From Gemmatimonadaceae bacterium (GTDB lineage: Bacteria; Gemmatimonadota; Gemmatimonadetes; Gemmatimonadales; Gemmatimonadaceae): DNA of 64,000 nt. This document shows positions 13,351-56,228 of this stretch, one piece after another. The notes below the pieces were generated by a model. That model was not told the origin of the DNA and searched no databases. It saw only the letters and a program-made list of their open reading frames with translations. The first letter of the stretch is position 1; each line of letters starts with the position of its first letter. Made by a program: the position numbers and the translations under genes. Where the stretch lies: assembly GCA_035606695.1 (NCBI GenBank), contig DATNEW010000012.1, positions 1-64,000 of the forward strand, in the 5' to 3' direction.

Positions 13351-14985
13351 GTGCGCGGGTTTTCGGTGAAGCGCGCCAAGTCGCTCGACGCGCTGCGCAG
13401 CCGGGCGTTCGACGTGCTCGTCGTCGGTGGCGGGATCACGGGATGCGGTATCGCCCGGGATGCCGCGCTGCGCGGGCTCTCGGTGGCGCTCGTCGAGAAG
13501 GATGACTTCGCGAGCGGCACCTCGAGCCGGTCGTCCCGGCTCGTGCACGGCGGCGTTCGCTATCTCGAGCATGGGCAGTTGCATCTGGTGTTCGAGTCGA
13601 GCGCGGAGCGGCGGCGGCTCCTGCGGCTCGCGCCGCATCTCGTGCGGGCGCTGGAGTTCACGTGGCCCGTGTACCGCGGCGCGCGCATTCCACGATGGAA
13701 GCTCGGCGCCGGGCTGATGCTGTACGACCTGCTGGCGTTGTTCCGCAACGTCGGGCGACACCGCCGGCTGAACGCCCGACAGGTGCTCGCGAACGAACCG
13801 ACGCTGCGTGCCGATGGGCTGCGCGGCGGGGCATCGTACTTCGACGCCGCGACGAACGATGCGCGCCTCACCCTGGCAAACGCCATCGCGGCGCAGGAAG
13901 CTGGCGCGGTCGTCGTCAATCACGCCGCGGTCACGGAGCTGCTGCACGAGGGCGATCGAATCGCGGGCGCCATTGTGCGTGACAAGCGGACCGGAAGCGT
14001 GTCGAGCGTGCGCGCGTCAGTCGTCGTCAATGCGACGGGACCCTGGAGCGATCGCGTTCGCGCGCTCGATGACGATACGGCGCACGCCGTCGTGCGCGGC
14101 AGCAAGGGCGTTCACATCGCGATCGCGCGCGATCGGATCGGCAATCGTCACGCGATCACGCTCCTGTCGCCGATCGACGGGCGCGTGTTTTTCGTCCTGC
14201 CCGCGGATTCGATGAGCATCGTCGGGACGACGGATACATTCACGTCCGCACCGCCGGACGAAGTGCGCGCGACGGCGGAAGACGTGAAGTATTTGATCGA
14301 TTCGGTCAACGCGTTCTTTCCCAACGCGCGACTCACATCGAACGACGTCTGTCGCGCCTGGGCGGGTATTCGTCCCCTGCTGCCGACGAACGGAAGCACA
14401 CCGGGATCGGTCTCGCGCGAGCACGCGATTACCTGGACGCCGCGCGGGCTCCTCAGCATCACCGGCGGCAAGTTGACGACCTACCGCGTGATGGCTTCCC
14501 AGGTCGTCGATGCGGTCGCCGAGCGATTGCGGCGGCCGTCGCGCCGGAATCTCACGCGTGATACGCCGCTTCCCGGCGGCGATTTCGCTTCATTCGACGT
14601 GCTGGCTGCGGACATCGCGCGCGCGACGAACGACGTCGATCTCGCGGCGCATCTCGCGACGGCCTATGGCAGCCGGTGGCGTGACGTATGGTCAGAGATC
14701 TCGAATGACGGCGCCGAACGGCTCGTTCCCGCCCTGCCCTATACGATCGGAGAAATGCGCTACTGCGTTCGGCGCGAGATGGCGATGACGATCGGCGATC
14801 TGCTCATGCGCCGCACGCATTTTGCCTTCGAGCTGTGCGGCTCGGACGCCGGTGACGTGCCCGCGCGCGTCGCGACCGCGATCGCGCCGCTGCTCGGTTG
14901 GAGCGCGGAAGACGAAGCGCGCGCGGTGCGCCAGTATCTCGAGACCGAAGTCCCACGCACGTTCACGATTGACGCGTCATCCTGA
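13351..14985 (+). CDS. glpD: aerobic glycerol-3-phosphate dehydrogenase
   Basis: 544 residues. The N-terminal FAD-binding motif is VLVVGGGITGCGIARDAALRGLSVALVEKDDFASGTSSRSSRLVHGGVRYLE, characteristic of GlpD. Further family segments are KGVHIAIARDRIG, FVLPADSMSIVGTTDT, and GIRPLLP followed by SITGGKLTTYRVMA. A C-terminal DAO_C domain (about 390-520) contains the MRYCVRREMAMTIGDLLMRRT segment. It oxidises glycerol-3-phosphate to dihydroxyacetone phosphate, passing electrons to quinone at the membrane. GTG 13351 is taken as start, with GTG 13366 possible. Its last three codons and stop (GCG TCA TCC TGA region) lie inside the repeat element that follows. Confidence 0.92.
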   Translation: MRGFSVKRAKSLDALRSRAFDVLVVGGGITGCGIARDAALRGLSVALVEKDDFASGTSSRSSRLVHGGVRYLEHGQLHLVFESSAERRRLLRLAPHLVRALEFTWPVYRGARIPRWKLGAGLMLYDLLALFRNVGRHRRLNARQVLANEPTLRADGLRGGASYFDAATNDARLTLANAIAAQEAGAVVVNHAAVTELLHEGDRIAGAIVRDKRTGSVSSVRASVVVNATGPWSDRVRALDDDTAHAVVRGSKGVHIAIARDRIGNRHAITLLSPIDGRVFFVLPADSMSIVGTTDTFTSAPPDEVRATAEDVKYLIDSVNAFFPNARLTSNDVCRAWAGIRPLLPTNGSTPGSVSREHAITWTPRGLLSITGGKLTTYRVMASQVVDAVAERLRRPSRRNLTRDTPLPGGDFASFDVLAADIARATNDVDLAAHLATAYGSRWRDVWSEISNDGAERLVPALPYTIGEMRYCVRREMAMTIGDLLMRRTHFAFELCGSDAGDVPARVATAIAPLLGWSAEDEARAVRQYLETEVPRTFTIDASS

Positions 14986-15054
14986 GGCGCGTAGCGCCGA
15001 AAGGATCTCATCCCCATCCATGCGGATGAGATCCTTCGCTTCGCTCAGGATGAC
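14976..15054. repeat. REP-like inverted repeat between convergent glpD and ADOP genes
   Basis: Left arm GTCATCCTGAGGCGCGTAGC ... AAGGATCTCATCC and right arm GGATGAGATCCTT ... CGCTCAGGATGAC pair over about 35 bp around a short loop near 15017. It matches the widespread bacterial intergenic motif GTCATCCTGAGCGAAGCGAAGGATCT. The left arm supplies the glpD stop codon. It probably ends transcription from both sides, although there is no U-tract. A truncated arm of the same motif occurs at 29915-29928. Confidence 0.8.
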
Positions 15055-15067
15055 AGCGTAGTCACCA

Positions 15068-41298: not shown

Positions 41299-43047
41299 AT
41301 GTCGATGGTTCGCTCTCTCACGCTCGCAGCCGCCGCGGCAGCGATCTCCAATATGTCGCTCGCGGCGCAGGGCACCGATCCGCGCGTAGGTCTCCGCGCC
41401 GGCTGGGAAAACGCCGGAGAGGCCGCGTTCAACATGAAGCTCGTCGCGCACGTCAATCGGCCGGCGAACTTCGTCGATACCACCAACATCGGAAATTTCG
41501 GATTCGTCAATTCCGATCTGATGTTTCGTGGCAATGAGGTTTTCCAGGGCAGCTTCCACGGCTTCCAGGTTTGGGACGTGTCGAACGCGGCACACCCGAG
41601 GCTGCGCACCTCGTACGTTTGCCCGGGCGGACAAGGCGACCTGTCCGTGTATCACAACCTGCTCTTCATGTCGGTCGAGGAAACCCTCGGCCGTCTCGAC
41701 TGCGGCGCGCAAGGCGTGAAGGACACGGTGAGCAAGGAACGCTTCCGCGGCGTTCGCATCTTCGACATCAGCGATCTCGATCATCCGAAGCAGATCGCCG
41801 ACGTGCAAACGTGCCGCGGCTCGCACACGCATACGCTCGTCGTCGACCCCAAGGACACGAAGAACGTCTACATCTACGTGTCGGGTACGAGCCCGGCGCG
41901 TTCGCCGAACGAGCTTGCGGGTTGCTCGAACAAGCGCCCGGAAGAAGATCCGAACACGTCGCTCTTTCGCATCGACGTCATTCAGGTGCCGCTCGCCGCG
42001 CCGCAGCGGGCGCACGTGATTTCGTCGCCGCGCATCTTCGCGGATAGCGCGGGCCACATCGCCGGCCTCTGGAACGGCGGTGCGCATGGCGAAGGTACGC
42101 AGACGACGACCGAAACGAACATGTGCCACGACATCACGGTCTACTCGCAAATCGGTCTCGCGGCCGGCGCGTGCTCGGGTAACGGAATTCTGCTCGACAT
42201 TCGGAACCCCGCCAAACCGAAGCGTGTCGCCGAGGTGACCGATCCGAACTTCGCCTATTGGCACTCGGCGACGTTCAACAACGACGGCAGCAAGGTGATC
42301 TTCACCGACGAGTGGGGCGGCGGTGTCGCGCCGCGCTGCCGCTCGACGGACAAGCCGACATGGGGCGCCGACGCGCTGTTCTCGATCTCGCGCGATCACG
42401 GCGTGCACCTGACGCCGGGCGGCTACTACAAGCTGCCCGCGCCGCAGACCGCGTATGAGAACTGTGTCGCGCACAACGGCTCGCTCGTTCCGGTGCCGGG
42501 CCGCGACATCATGGTGCAGGCATGGTATCAGGGCGGCGTCTCGGTGTTCGACTTCTCTGATGTGAACAAGCCGAAGGAGATCGCGTTCTTCGATCGCGGC
42601 CCGCTCGATTCCACGAAGCTGATCCTCGGCGGACAGTGGTCGGCTTACTGGTACAACGGCCACATCTACGGCTCGGAGATCGCGCGGGGTCTGGACGTGC
42701 TCGACCTCACGCCGAGCGAGTTTCTCACGCAGAACGAGATCGACGCGGCGAAGTCCGTGCACGTGGACGTCGACAATCCGCAGAACCAGCAGCGGATCGT
42801 GTGGCCGGCGTCGTTCTCGCTCTCGAGAGCGTACCTCGATCAGCTCGTCCGCGACCACGGAATCTCGGCGGATCGGACGACCGCGATCGGCCGTGATCTG
42901 GATGCGGCGGAACAGCTCAAGGGTGGAGCAAGGAGCGCGGTGCTACGCAAGCTCGGCGCGTCGGTGGATGCGGACGCGAAGTCGGCGTCTGACGCGGCGA
43001 AGGTCAGGCTCCTGGCCAAATCGATTCGTGATTTGGCGAGCAAATAA
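41299..43047 (+). CDS. secreted LVIVD-repeat beta-propeller protein
   Basis: 582 residues. The signal peptide ends near SLAAQ. Repeating segments such as GFQVWDVSNAAHPRLRTSY, GVRIFDISDLDHPKQIADV, ILLDIRNPAKPKRVAEV and GVSVFDFSDVNKPKEIAFF are LVIVD repeats forming a beta-propeller. A helical C-terminal tail (about 480-582) follows. Several conserved Cys (YVCPGG, RLDCG, TCRGS, GCSNK, MCHD, ACSG, RCRS, ENCVAH) suggest disulfides, and HTHTLVVD and HSATF His may bind metal. No catalytic function is established for the family. Its stop lies 13 bp before the nested palindrome at 43061. Confidence 0.85.
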   Translation: MSMVRSLTLAAAAAAISNMSLAAQGTDPRVGLRAGWENAGEAAFNMKLVAHVNRPANFVDTTNIGNFGFVNSDLMFRGNEVFQGSFHGFQVWDVSNAAHPRLRTSYVCPGGQGDLSVYHNLLFMSVEETLGRLDCGAQGVKDTVSKERFRGVRIFDISDLDHPKQIADVQTCRGSHTHTLVVDPKDTKNVYIYVSGTSPARSPNELAGCSNKRPEEDPNTSLFRIDVIQVPLAAPQRAHVISSPRIFADSAGHIAGLWNGGAHGEGTQTTTETNMCHDITVYSQIGLAAGACSGNGILLDIRNPAKPKRVAEVTDPNFAYWHSATFNNDGSKVIFTDEWGGGVAPRCRSTDKPTWGADALFSISRDHGVHLTPGGYYKLPAPQTAYENCVAHNGSLVPVPGRDIMVQAWYQGGVSVFDFSDVNKPKEIAFFDRGPLDSTKLILGGQWSAYWYNGHIYGSEIARGLDVLDLTPSEFLTQNEIDAAKSVHVDVDNPQNQQRIVWPASFSLSRAYLDQLVRDHGISADRTTAIGRDLDAAEQLKGGARSAVLRKLGASVDADAKSASDAAKVRLLAKSIRDLASK

Positions 43048-43060
43048 GACGAACAAACCG

Positions 43061-43281
43061 TACCACGGACGGACGTCGGACGGCCACGGATCGGCACGGA
43101 GACCGCGTCTGAACGGCGTTGTGACTGCGTTTGACGTTGAATGCCTCTTAAGACACCCTCGGGACGCTTCGATCGCCGAAGCGTCCCGAGGGTGTTCTAA
43201 AAAGAATCATTCAACACCAGTTGACCGCGGTTCACGCCGTCTCCGTGCCTGTCCGCGGTTGTCCGACGTTCGTCCGTGGTA
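43061..43281. repeat. 221-bp nested inverted-repeat element, copy A
   Basis: Outer arms of about 52 bp (43061-43113 and 43230-43281, beginning TACCACGGACG and ending CGTCCGTGGTA) pair with roughly 85 percent identity by eye. A perfect inner hairpin ACACCCTCGGGACGCTTCG (43153-43171) / its complement (43177-43195) has a 5-bp loop, and the linkers (GTTGAATG / CATTCAAC) also pair. The whole is nearly one palindrome. It fills the space between two converging genes, 13 bp from one stop and 9 bp from the other. A second copy is at 56011-56228. No protein is coded; it is MITE- or BIME-like. Confidence 0.85.
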
Positions 43282-43290
43282 TGCTGTCGT

Positions 43291-43923
43291 CTATCGAGCG
43301 ATCTCGAAACAGCACTGCGGTCTATCTCCTCGGCTACAGTGCTCTCGGACTTCACTCCCGATCACATCGCTCAGCATCACCTGAACGGCGCCGCAGACTT
43401 CCTTCCGCTCCGCGACCGCGACCGATAACGGACAACCGCAGCCTCGGATCATGATCGTCCGCCCATCCGGAGAGCGCTCGATCGTGGTGAGCCCGCCAAG
43501 ATCGTTCAGGATCCGCGACGCCACCTCGACGCGCGCTTCGATGTCACGCTCCGTGCTCGGCGAATCGCCGGCGAGGCGGTGGCCGACGTCCCGCATCAAC
43601 GCGCGAAAGGCCTGTGGCGTCAGCCGCTCGCCAAGCGCGCGCAGCAGCGTCGAGAGAAACGGCAAATACGCGTTCGACAGCGACGCCTCGGCTGACGGTA
43701 CGATCTCATAGAAGGTCGCGGGCTTTCCCACCCCGCCGTCACGGCGCACGCCGCTCGACCGCACCATGCCGTCGCGCTCGAGCAGCTGCAGCTGCAGCCG
43801 CACCGCGTTATCGGTGACGCCGAGCTCCGCGGCAAGCTCGTCCACCGTACGGTTGCGCCGCCGCAGCAAATCGACGATGCGGCCTCGCGTCGAATCGGCG
43901 AATCGGGGGTTCAGGATCGGCAT
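43291..43923 (-). CDS. helix-turn-helix regulator with C-terminal Cys cluster (SufR-like)
   Basis: 210 residues from ATG 43923, chosen because TTGGAGGCGAAG gives a strong ribosome site; GTG 43959 is the alternative. The N-terminal winged helix is RGRIVDLLRRRNRTVDELAAELGVTDNAVRLQLQLLERDGMVRSSG (DeoR/ArsR-like). The C-terminal sensor has a cysteine pattern C-x12-C-x18-C-x7-C-C (CPLSVAVAERKEVC ... HCSRGDRPQCCFEI), of the kind that holds an iron-sulfur cluster or other metal in SufR-related regulators. It is divergent from folE, and a palindrome in the shared promoter is its likely operator. The sensed signal is unknown; redox or iron is likely. Confidence 0.82.
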   Translation of the reverse strand: MPILNPRFADSTRGRIVDLLRRRNRTVDELAAELGVTDNAVRLQLQLLERDGMVRSSGVRRDGGVGKPATFYEIVPSAEASLSNAYLPFLSTLLRALGERLTPQAFRALMRDVGHRLAGDSPSTERDIEARVEVASRILNDLGGLTTIERSPDGRTIMIRGCGCPLSVAVAERKEVCGAVQVMLSDVIGSEVREHCSRGDRPQCCFEIAR

Positions 43924-43979
43924 CTTCGCCTCCAAGGAGTCTGTGGAACCATACAGCACGACGCAGGATTGTGCAATTA

Positions 43980-45271: not shown

Positions 45272-45310
45272 CGCGAAGTAGTGCAGCAGTAGCTCCCAGG
45301 GGAGCAAGAA

Positions 45311-45347
45311 AAGCGCGGCGGCCACTTCTGGCCGCCGCGCTTTTTTT
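45311..45347. terminator. intrinsic terminator after the DUF4142 gene
   Basis: AAGCGCGGCGGCC (45311-45323) pairs with GGCCGCCGCGCTT (45330-45342), 6-nt loop, and the right arm runs into seven T residues (45341-45347). The AA start of the left arm gives a short U-run on the other strand as well, so it may also stop the converging lipoprotein transcript. Confidence 0.9.
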
Positions 45348-56010: not shown

Positions 56011-56228
56011 TACCACGGACAACGGCGGACGAACACGGAACGGCACGGAGACGGCGTGAACTGCAGTCTACTGCCGTCCAGCGACTTCTTTTTGGAACAC
56101 CCTCGGGACGCCTCGCGAATCGAAGCATCCCGGGGATGTTCTAAGAAGCATTCCCTTGAAACGCGATTCAAACGGTTTAAACGCCGTCTCCGTGCCTGTC
56201 AGTATTCGTCCGGCAGTTTTCCGTGGTC
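56011..56228. repeat. ~218-bp nested inverted-repeat element, copy B
   Basis: It has the same design as copy A (43061-43281). The outer arms (56011-56058, starting TACCACGGAC and running to GGAGACGGCGT; 56180-56227, ACGCCGTCTCCGTGCC to CCGTGGT) pair imperfectly. The inner hairpin GAACACCCTCGGGACGC.. (from 56096) / ..GCATCCCGGGGATGTTC (to 56142) is looser than in copy A. Shared core words are ACACCCTCGGGACGC and GTTCTAA. It occupies a divergent promoter region between the M28 peptidase and an alpha/beta hydrolase, so unlike copy A it lies upstream of genes on both sides. Confidence 0.82.

Follow-up and report, generated by a model that had tools for sequence, protein, structure and literature searches.

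The two long palindromes in the window (the 64,000-nt stretch of Gemmatimonadaceae DNA analysed here) are best understood as non-autonomous, MITE-like and gene-less derivatives of elements that carry a GxxExxY gene, together making up a two-part system that resembles REPIN-RAYT but uses a different enzyme; a reading to which we assign a probability of roughly 0.7. Gene-bearing and gene-less copies share their arms in several species, the copies are dispersed, and the link to GxxExxY is seen again in other members of the phylum and outside it.

Two nested palindromes and their family

Read from its ends inwards, copy A (positions 43,061–43,281, plus strand; 221 bp, starting TACCACGGACG and ending CGTCCGTGGTA) is a nested imperfect palindrome in which outer arms of ~50 bp give way to linkers and then to an exact inner hairpin; a gene-less, MITE-like element delineated by RNA folding, repeat search and an arm profile. 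The left arm (43,061–43,113, plus strand; 49.9 bits against the profile) is a terminal inverted repeat with short motifs of CGGA type, and the right arm (43,230–43,281, minus strand) scores 54.7 bits; as DNA the two match at 41 of 50 positions. The inner hairpin (43,153–43,195, plus strand) pairs ACACCCTCGGGACGCTTCG (43,153–43,171) with CGAAGCGTCCCGAGGGTGT (43,177–43,195) around a 5-nt loop. As RNA, the element folds end-to-end with an energy of -164 kcal/mol, where shuffled sequences average -87 (z -14.9; 0/200 shuffles as good). The preliminary description, which had nearly the whole element folding back on itself around a perfect 19-bp hairpin, thus holds when G-U pairs are counted, as does its placement of copy A between two stop codons: the first ends at 43,047, 13 bp from the element, and closes a plus-strand gene (41,299–43,047; 582 aa, with close homologues in Gemmatimonadota and no Pfam match), whilst the second begins at 43,291, 9 bp past the element, and belongs to a convergent gene on the minus strand (43,291–43,959; 222 aa, an ArsR/HTH_20-type regulator).

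The second copy expected near 56 kb is present. Copy B (56,011–56,228, minus strand) is a diverged version with its polarity reversed relative to copy A and to the family; its arms lie at 56,011–56,063 (left in the window, plus strand; 48.7 bits) and 56,176–56,227 (right in the window, minus strand; 47.8 bits), and its RNA fold reaches z -9.0. When the window is searched for self-similarity, no long palindrome of the family turns up beyond these two. Filling a convergent gap, as had been proposed, is true of copy A but not of copy B, which sits in a gap between divergent genes, with 22 and 27 bp separating it from their two predicted start codons. In sister species that gap holds 154–179 unaligned bp instead, so that the usual spacer seems to have given way to the element.

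The genome as a whole (G000) is the MAG of a soil bacterium, placed in Gemmatimonadaceae by the names of the closest homologues. In it the arm profile, applied to fetched stretches of the contigs, recovers 54 paired-arm copies; a whole-genome DNA search likewise shows dozens of copies besides copy A, about 70–83% identical to it. Most are 187–284 bp long; nine copies of 110–128 bp have no inner hairpin, and one extends to 577 bp. The arms always point inward, plus then minus, in the 54 paired elements, the exceptions to this arrangement being one unpaired arm (on contig C15) and two short arm extensions. The family ends are conserved (ACCACGGAC...GTCCGTGGT): alignment gives conserved arms of ~50 nt bounded by ACC and GGT, with T or G as the base just outside at 77/82 ends, and two motifs within them, an end motif (ACCACGGA) and one of the inner arm (GGCACGGAGACGGCG), are near-invariant, the intervening blocks being variable. 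Run against 148 genomes of the taxonomic family, the profile finds strong matches only in G000; those in the genus and in a handful of further genera are weaker, and the rest lie near chance; the exact two-arm pattern has no match in 84,980 species genomes, a set that possibly does not include G000 itself.

The window also holds an 88-bp palindrome of a different repeat class (14,972–15,059; GTCATCCTGAGGCGCGTAGCGCC...). Similar sequence is nested inside one family copy (G000:C38:378-592), and a 206-bp palindrome of the same kind is found in the sister genome G005 (L215 11413-11618).

Dispersal, empty sites and relatives

The copies at C22:2327 and C26:282469 share 94% identity across ~244 bp, a 29-bp arm extension among them, and lie in unrelated surroundings, the two loci diverging right at the ACC...GGT ends. 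Within the same genus, the orthologous gap is empty for the copy at C9:58276 in G002, G003 and G005, and for that at C9:166910 in G002 and G005; copy B's gap is without the element in G001, G002 and G005 (G002 having a short, unrelated palindrome there). For copy A itself an empty site is not demonstrable, because its gene pair is not syntenic in the sister species. Dispersal and empty sites together therefore indicate mobility, and the suggestion of a mobile repeat family, or MITE, is upheld by the copy number, the conserved ends, the empty gaps that it was proposed to look for and the near-identical pair. The search for target-site duplications, proposed alongside, came back negative: none is seen in 41 elements, where no k-mer or offset exceeds shuffles by z 2, and no palindromic pairing is found between the flanks outside the element ends.

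The elements have the anatomy of a MITE in being short, gene-less, bounded by terminal inverted repeats, multicopy and dispersed, and in having ends in common with a gene-bearing parent (64 nt at the left end, ~95 nt at the right; see below). Bacterial MITEs such as ERIC/RU-1 and YPAL/RU-2 are intergenic, mostly gene-less units of 100–300 bp with terminal inverted repeats and long hairpins. The copy A family resembles these in architecture, but differs in that no target duplication is detected and that its gene-bearing relative encodes a GxxExxY protein rather than a known transposase.

The gap between radA and dnaB holds a 194-bp family copy in G000 (G000:C35:134944-135137) and is without the element in G003, whilst G001, G002 and G004 (L201, L202, L204) each have a long palindrome there that differs in sequence from the G000 copy; in all, four of six same-genus genomes have a species-specific palindrome in this gap. 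Within their respective genomes, the palindromes of G002 and G004 are members of families with tens of matches, and that of G001 is one of a smaller set; none of the three families occurs in G000. The core of the inner hairpin is partly common to the species. Other long palindromes with repeated short motifs, without a tie to a gene, are seen in G005 (L218 5136-5379 and L216 447-593; GCTGGAGGCTGGGGG... and CCGTCATCCGTTTTCCG...).

A GxxExxY gene between the arms

In the 577-bp copy, at G000:C29:82801-83377, the profile recognises both arms of the family (33.5 and 38.3 bits). They enclose an intact 155-aa ORF, with its ATG overlapping the left arm (cATGACCACGGAC). The ORF matches TIGR04256 with 100 bits (cut-off 35, E 9e-29) and PF13366 (PDDEXK_3, of the PD-(D/E)XK superfamily) with 100 bits (cut-off 22, E 1e-28); judged by these matches, its product is a clear member of the GxxExxY family, which is named for its motif only. 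This is the only gene found inside arms of the copy A family, where gene-bearing and gene-less copies stand at 1 to ~53. The description of a repeat ‘without a protein’ therefore fits the two copies in the window but not the family. Aligned with the gene-less consensus, the C29 copy shares 64 nt on its left and ~95 nt on its right, the latter including the A-tract that precedes the right arm; for this reason the gene-less copies would most simply be internal-deletion or rearranged derivatives of the gene-bearing element.

Across 28 homologues there is no variation in three PD-(D/E)XK residues (D102, E112 and K114) or in the residues of the GxxExxY motif. GxxExxY proteins fall in the same superfamily as Cas4-like nucleases, and Cas4 models give weak scores with some of the homologues; the similarity is remote (best E 1e-4) but fits a role as a DNA nuclease. 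A sequence search of the PDB returned no related solved structure, and an AlphaFold prediction from a single GxxExxY sequence, with a pLDDT of 38, was too poor to use. In the literature searched we found passing mentions of the family but no experimental work on any GxxExxY protein, nor any link between these proteins and inverted repeats or gene-less palindromes.

GxxExxY genes are present in 8/8 genomes tested. With an inverted repeat scoring at least 30 within 250 nt of the gene as the criterion, 15 of 27 GxxExxY genes are bracketed, against 1 of 284 control genes of the same genomes (Fisher p 2e-17), and a survey of the phylum adds a further 13/26; a bracket is not detectable at the three other GxxExxY genes of G000 or at about half of all those surveyed. 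Many of the bracketing arms contain repeats of short CGGA- or CAGAG-type motifs that differ from case to case, those of the phylum survey including CCACAGAGGCACCGAGGGCACAGAG, CACGGAGACACGGAG and CGCGGAGGTCGCGGGG.

Brackets that exceed the shuffled maximum are also seen in Gemmatirosa kalamazoonensis (113 versus 24), in Bacteroides finegoldii (TTCACCACAGAGGACGCAGAGGACACGGAG; 45 versus 26), in Bernardetia (36 versus 27) and on a viral contig (47 versus 25), where the arm extends into the beginning of the coding sequence; at six other plasmid loci (Treponema, Sphingomonas, Fusobacteria, Persicobacter, Prevotella and a second Gemmatirosa locus) no bracket rises above that maximum, and a scan of viral contigs with a single GxxExxY protein gave no match. 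On a Bacteroides finegoldii plasmid (L303) the GxxExxY gene directly follows radA; on one from Sphingomonas parapaucimobilis (L258) it lies between fabD and fabG, with short repeats of CGCGAAG type upstream only.

The arms around GxxExxY genes of the sister species are themselves multicopy and species-specific, with ~45 matches in G003 (from two related arm queries) and 15–20 each in G004 and G002; the examples fetched are palindromes, at places where a gene search finds no GxxExxY. They also coincide with palindromes found independently: the radA-dnaB family of G002, a palindrome of G004, and G001.

Alternatives and proposed mechanism

Could these palindromes instead be immobile structures, kept in place by selection as transcription terminators or stabilisers of mRNA 3′ ends? 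The preliminary description had allowed for a very strong bidirectional barrier to transcription. Their setting invites the idea, with 23 of 52 copies in convergent gaps, 26 in tandem gaps and 3 in divergent ones; 49/52 thus lie at gene 3′ ends (as called with a simple codon-usage script rather than a full gene finder), divergent gaps being depleted (binomial p 0.0006) and the nearest stop codon lying at a median of 13 nt and within 50 nt for 45/51 copies. The nine ~120-bp copies, moreover, have A-rich and T-rich flanks on their two sides in the manner of a bidirectional terminator, with a T-rich tract at 16/18 ends. Larger copies, however, have such a tract at only 25/90 ends, a simple terminator scan calls none at copies A and B, the stem of the consensus inner hairpin is preceded by T and followed by A (the reverse of an intrinsic terminator), and copy B and two others lie in divergent gaps; these points, with the mobility argued above, make selection for termination a very unlikely origin. 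It is nevertheless compatible with derivation from GxxExxY elements: to judge from the flanking tracts, a terminator role is plausible for the ~120-bp copies only, and termination may be a secondary role or the sign of a preferred landing site. Elsewhere in the window, a strong canonical bidirectional terminator-like hairpin is found at 45,306–45,347 (AAGAAAAGCGCGGCGGCC...TTTTTTT), which suggests that G000 uses ordinary intrinsic terminators.

Still further down the scale we place a structured non-coding RNA family under base-pair selection, which the very strong folding and some compensatory changes in the inner hairpin (permutation p <0.0002, and 0.03 for the outer arms) would favour. Against it, the RNAalifold covariation term is close to zero (-0.13), outer-arm mismatches show no significant strand bias (58 G-U versus 44 A-C) and Rfam has no matching family; an RNA gene was rejected on these grounds. 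The preliminary description had staked its reading on further copies and on covarying arms, of which the copies exist in number and the covariation is weak. Because the motifs are near-invariant and pairing covaries so weakly, the arms look to be conserved for their sequence, as would be expected of transposon ends or binding sites, and not for an RNA helix. No more credible is a reading as REP/BIME/REPIN repeats that a RAYT (Y1 transposase) would mobilise, although a REPIN-RAYT system likewise presents tens of intergenic palindromic copies and a single member with a gene. REP, BIME and REPIN units are 20–40-nt hairpins with a GTAG or CGTC tag (PMC3733652). The arms seen here are ~50 nt long with repeated motifs of CGGA and CAGAG type, short tagged hairpins are absent, and the 99%-complete G000 has no match to the Y1/RAYT transposase (PF01797); membership was thus rejected, and the proposed ‘BIME-like’ label falls with it. 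The alternative with most in its favour, though we consider it unlikely, is that a conventional DDE-type transposase moves these elements in trans as ordinary MITEs, GxxExxY being a passenger or domesticated gene caught between arms by chance. The MITE anatomy and gene-less state of the copies agree with this, and old copies would need no visible target duplication. Yet GxxExxY is the sole gene found within the family's arms, an arm-pattern search shows no arm pair 0.7–5 kb apart among the matches listed, and passenger status would not explain why GxxExxY lies inside differently sequenced arms in many species.

Derivation from GxxExxY elements would work as follows. The GxxExxY protein, a putative nuclease, would recognise the short arm motifs and cut the element or process its hairpins; it would then mobilise in trans both its own copy and the gene-less palindromes, by analogy with RAYT and REPINs. 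RAYTs are thought to mobilise REPINs in trans. Gene-less copies would persist mainly just past stop codons, where insertion may be least harmful or may aid in ending transcription. The parallel with REPIN-RAYT lies in one gene flanked by repeats and many gene-less intergenic palindromes of species-specific sequence; the difference lies in the enzyme, which belongs to the PD-(D/E)XK superfamily and not to Y1/HUH. Taken by itself the repeat is a MITE-like family; what is novel in the two-part system, relative to REPIN-RAYT, is its protein.

The recurrence of a gene within arms of differing sequence in many bacteria points to what is apparently an undescribed kind of mobile element. Whether this extends to a bacteria-wide transposable-element class is, in our estimation, evenly balanced: GxxExxY proteins would be the mobilising nucleases of ~0.5-kb units, each with a PD-(D/E)XK gene between inverted repeats, from which every host species would acquire gene-less palindromes of its own at the ends of genes; the arms of this class would consist of short, partly periodic motifs (CACGGAC, CACAGAG, CGCGGAGG and others), the CACAGAG-type repeats of Gemmatimonadota and Bacteroidota included. 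Proof that GxxExxY is the mobilising enzyme would make this a categorically new class. If the proposal is true, such palindromes should not be taken by default for RNA genes or regulatory elements. The apparently uncharacterised GxxExxY family then gains a likely role in mobile elements and is tied to the abundant, unexplained palindromic repeats of environmental genomes; and a two-component system like REPIN-RAYT would exist on another enzyme fold.
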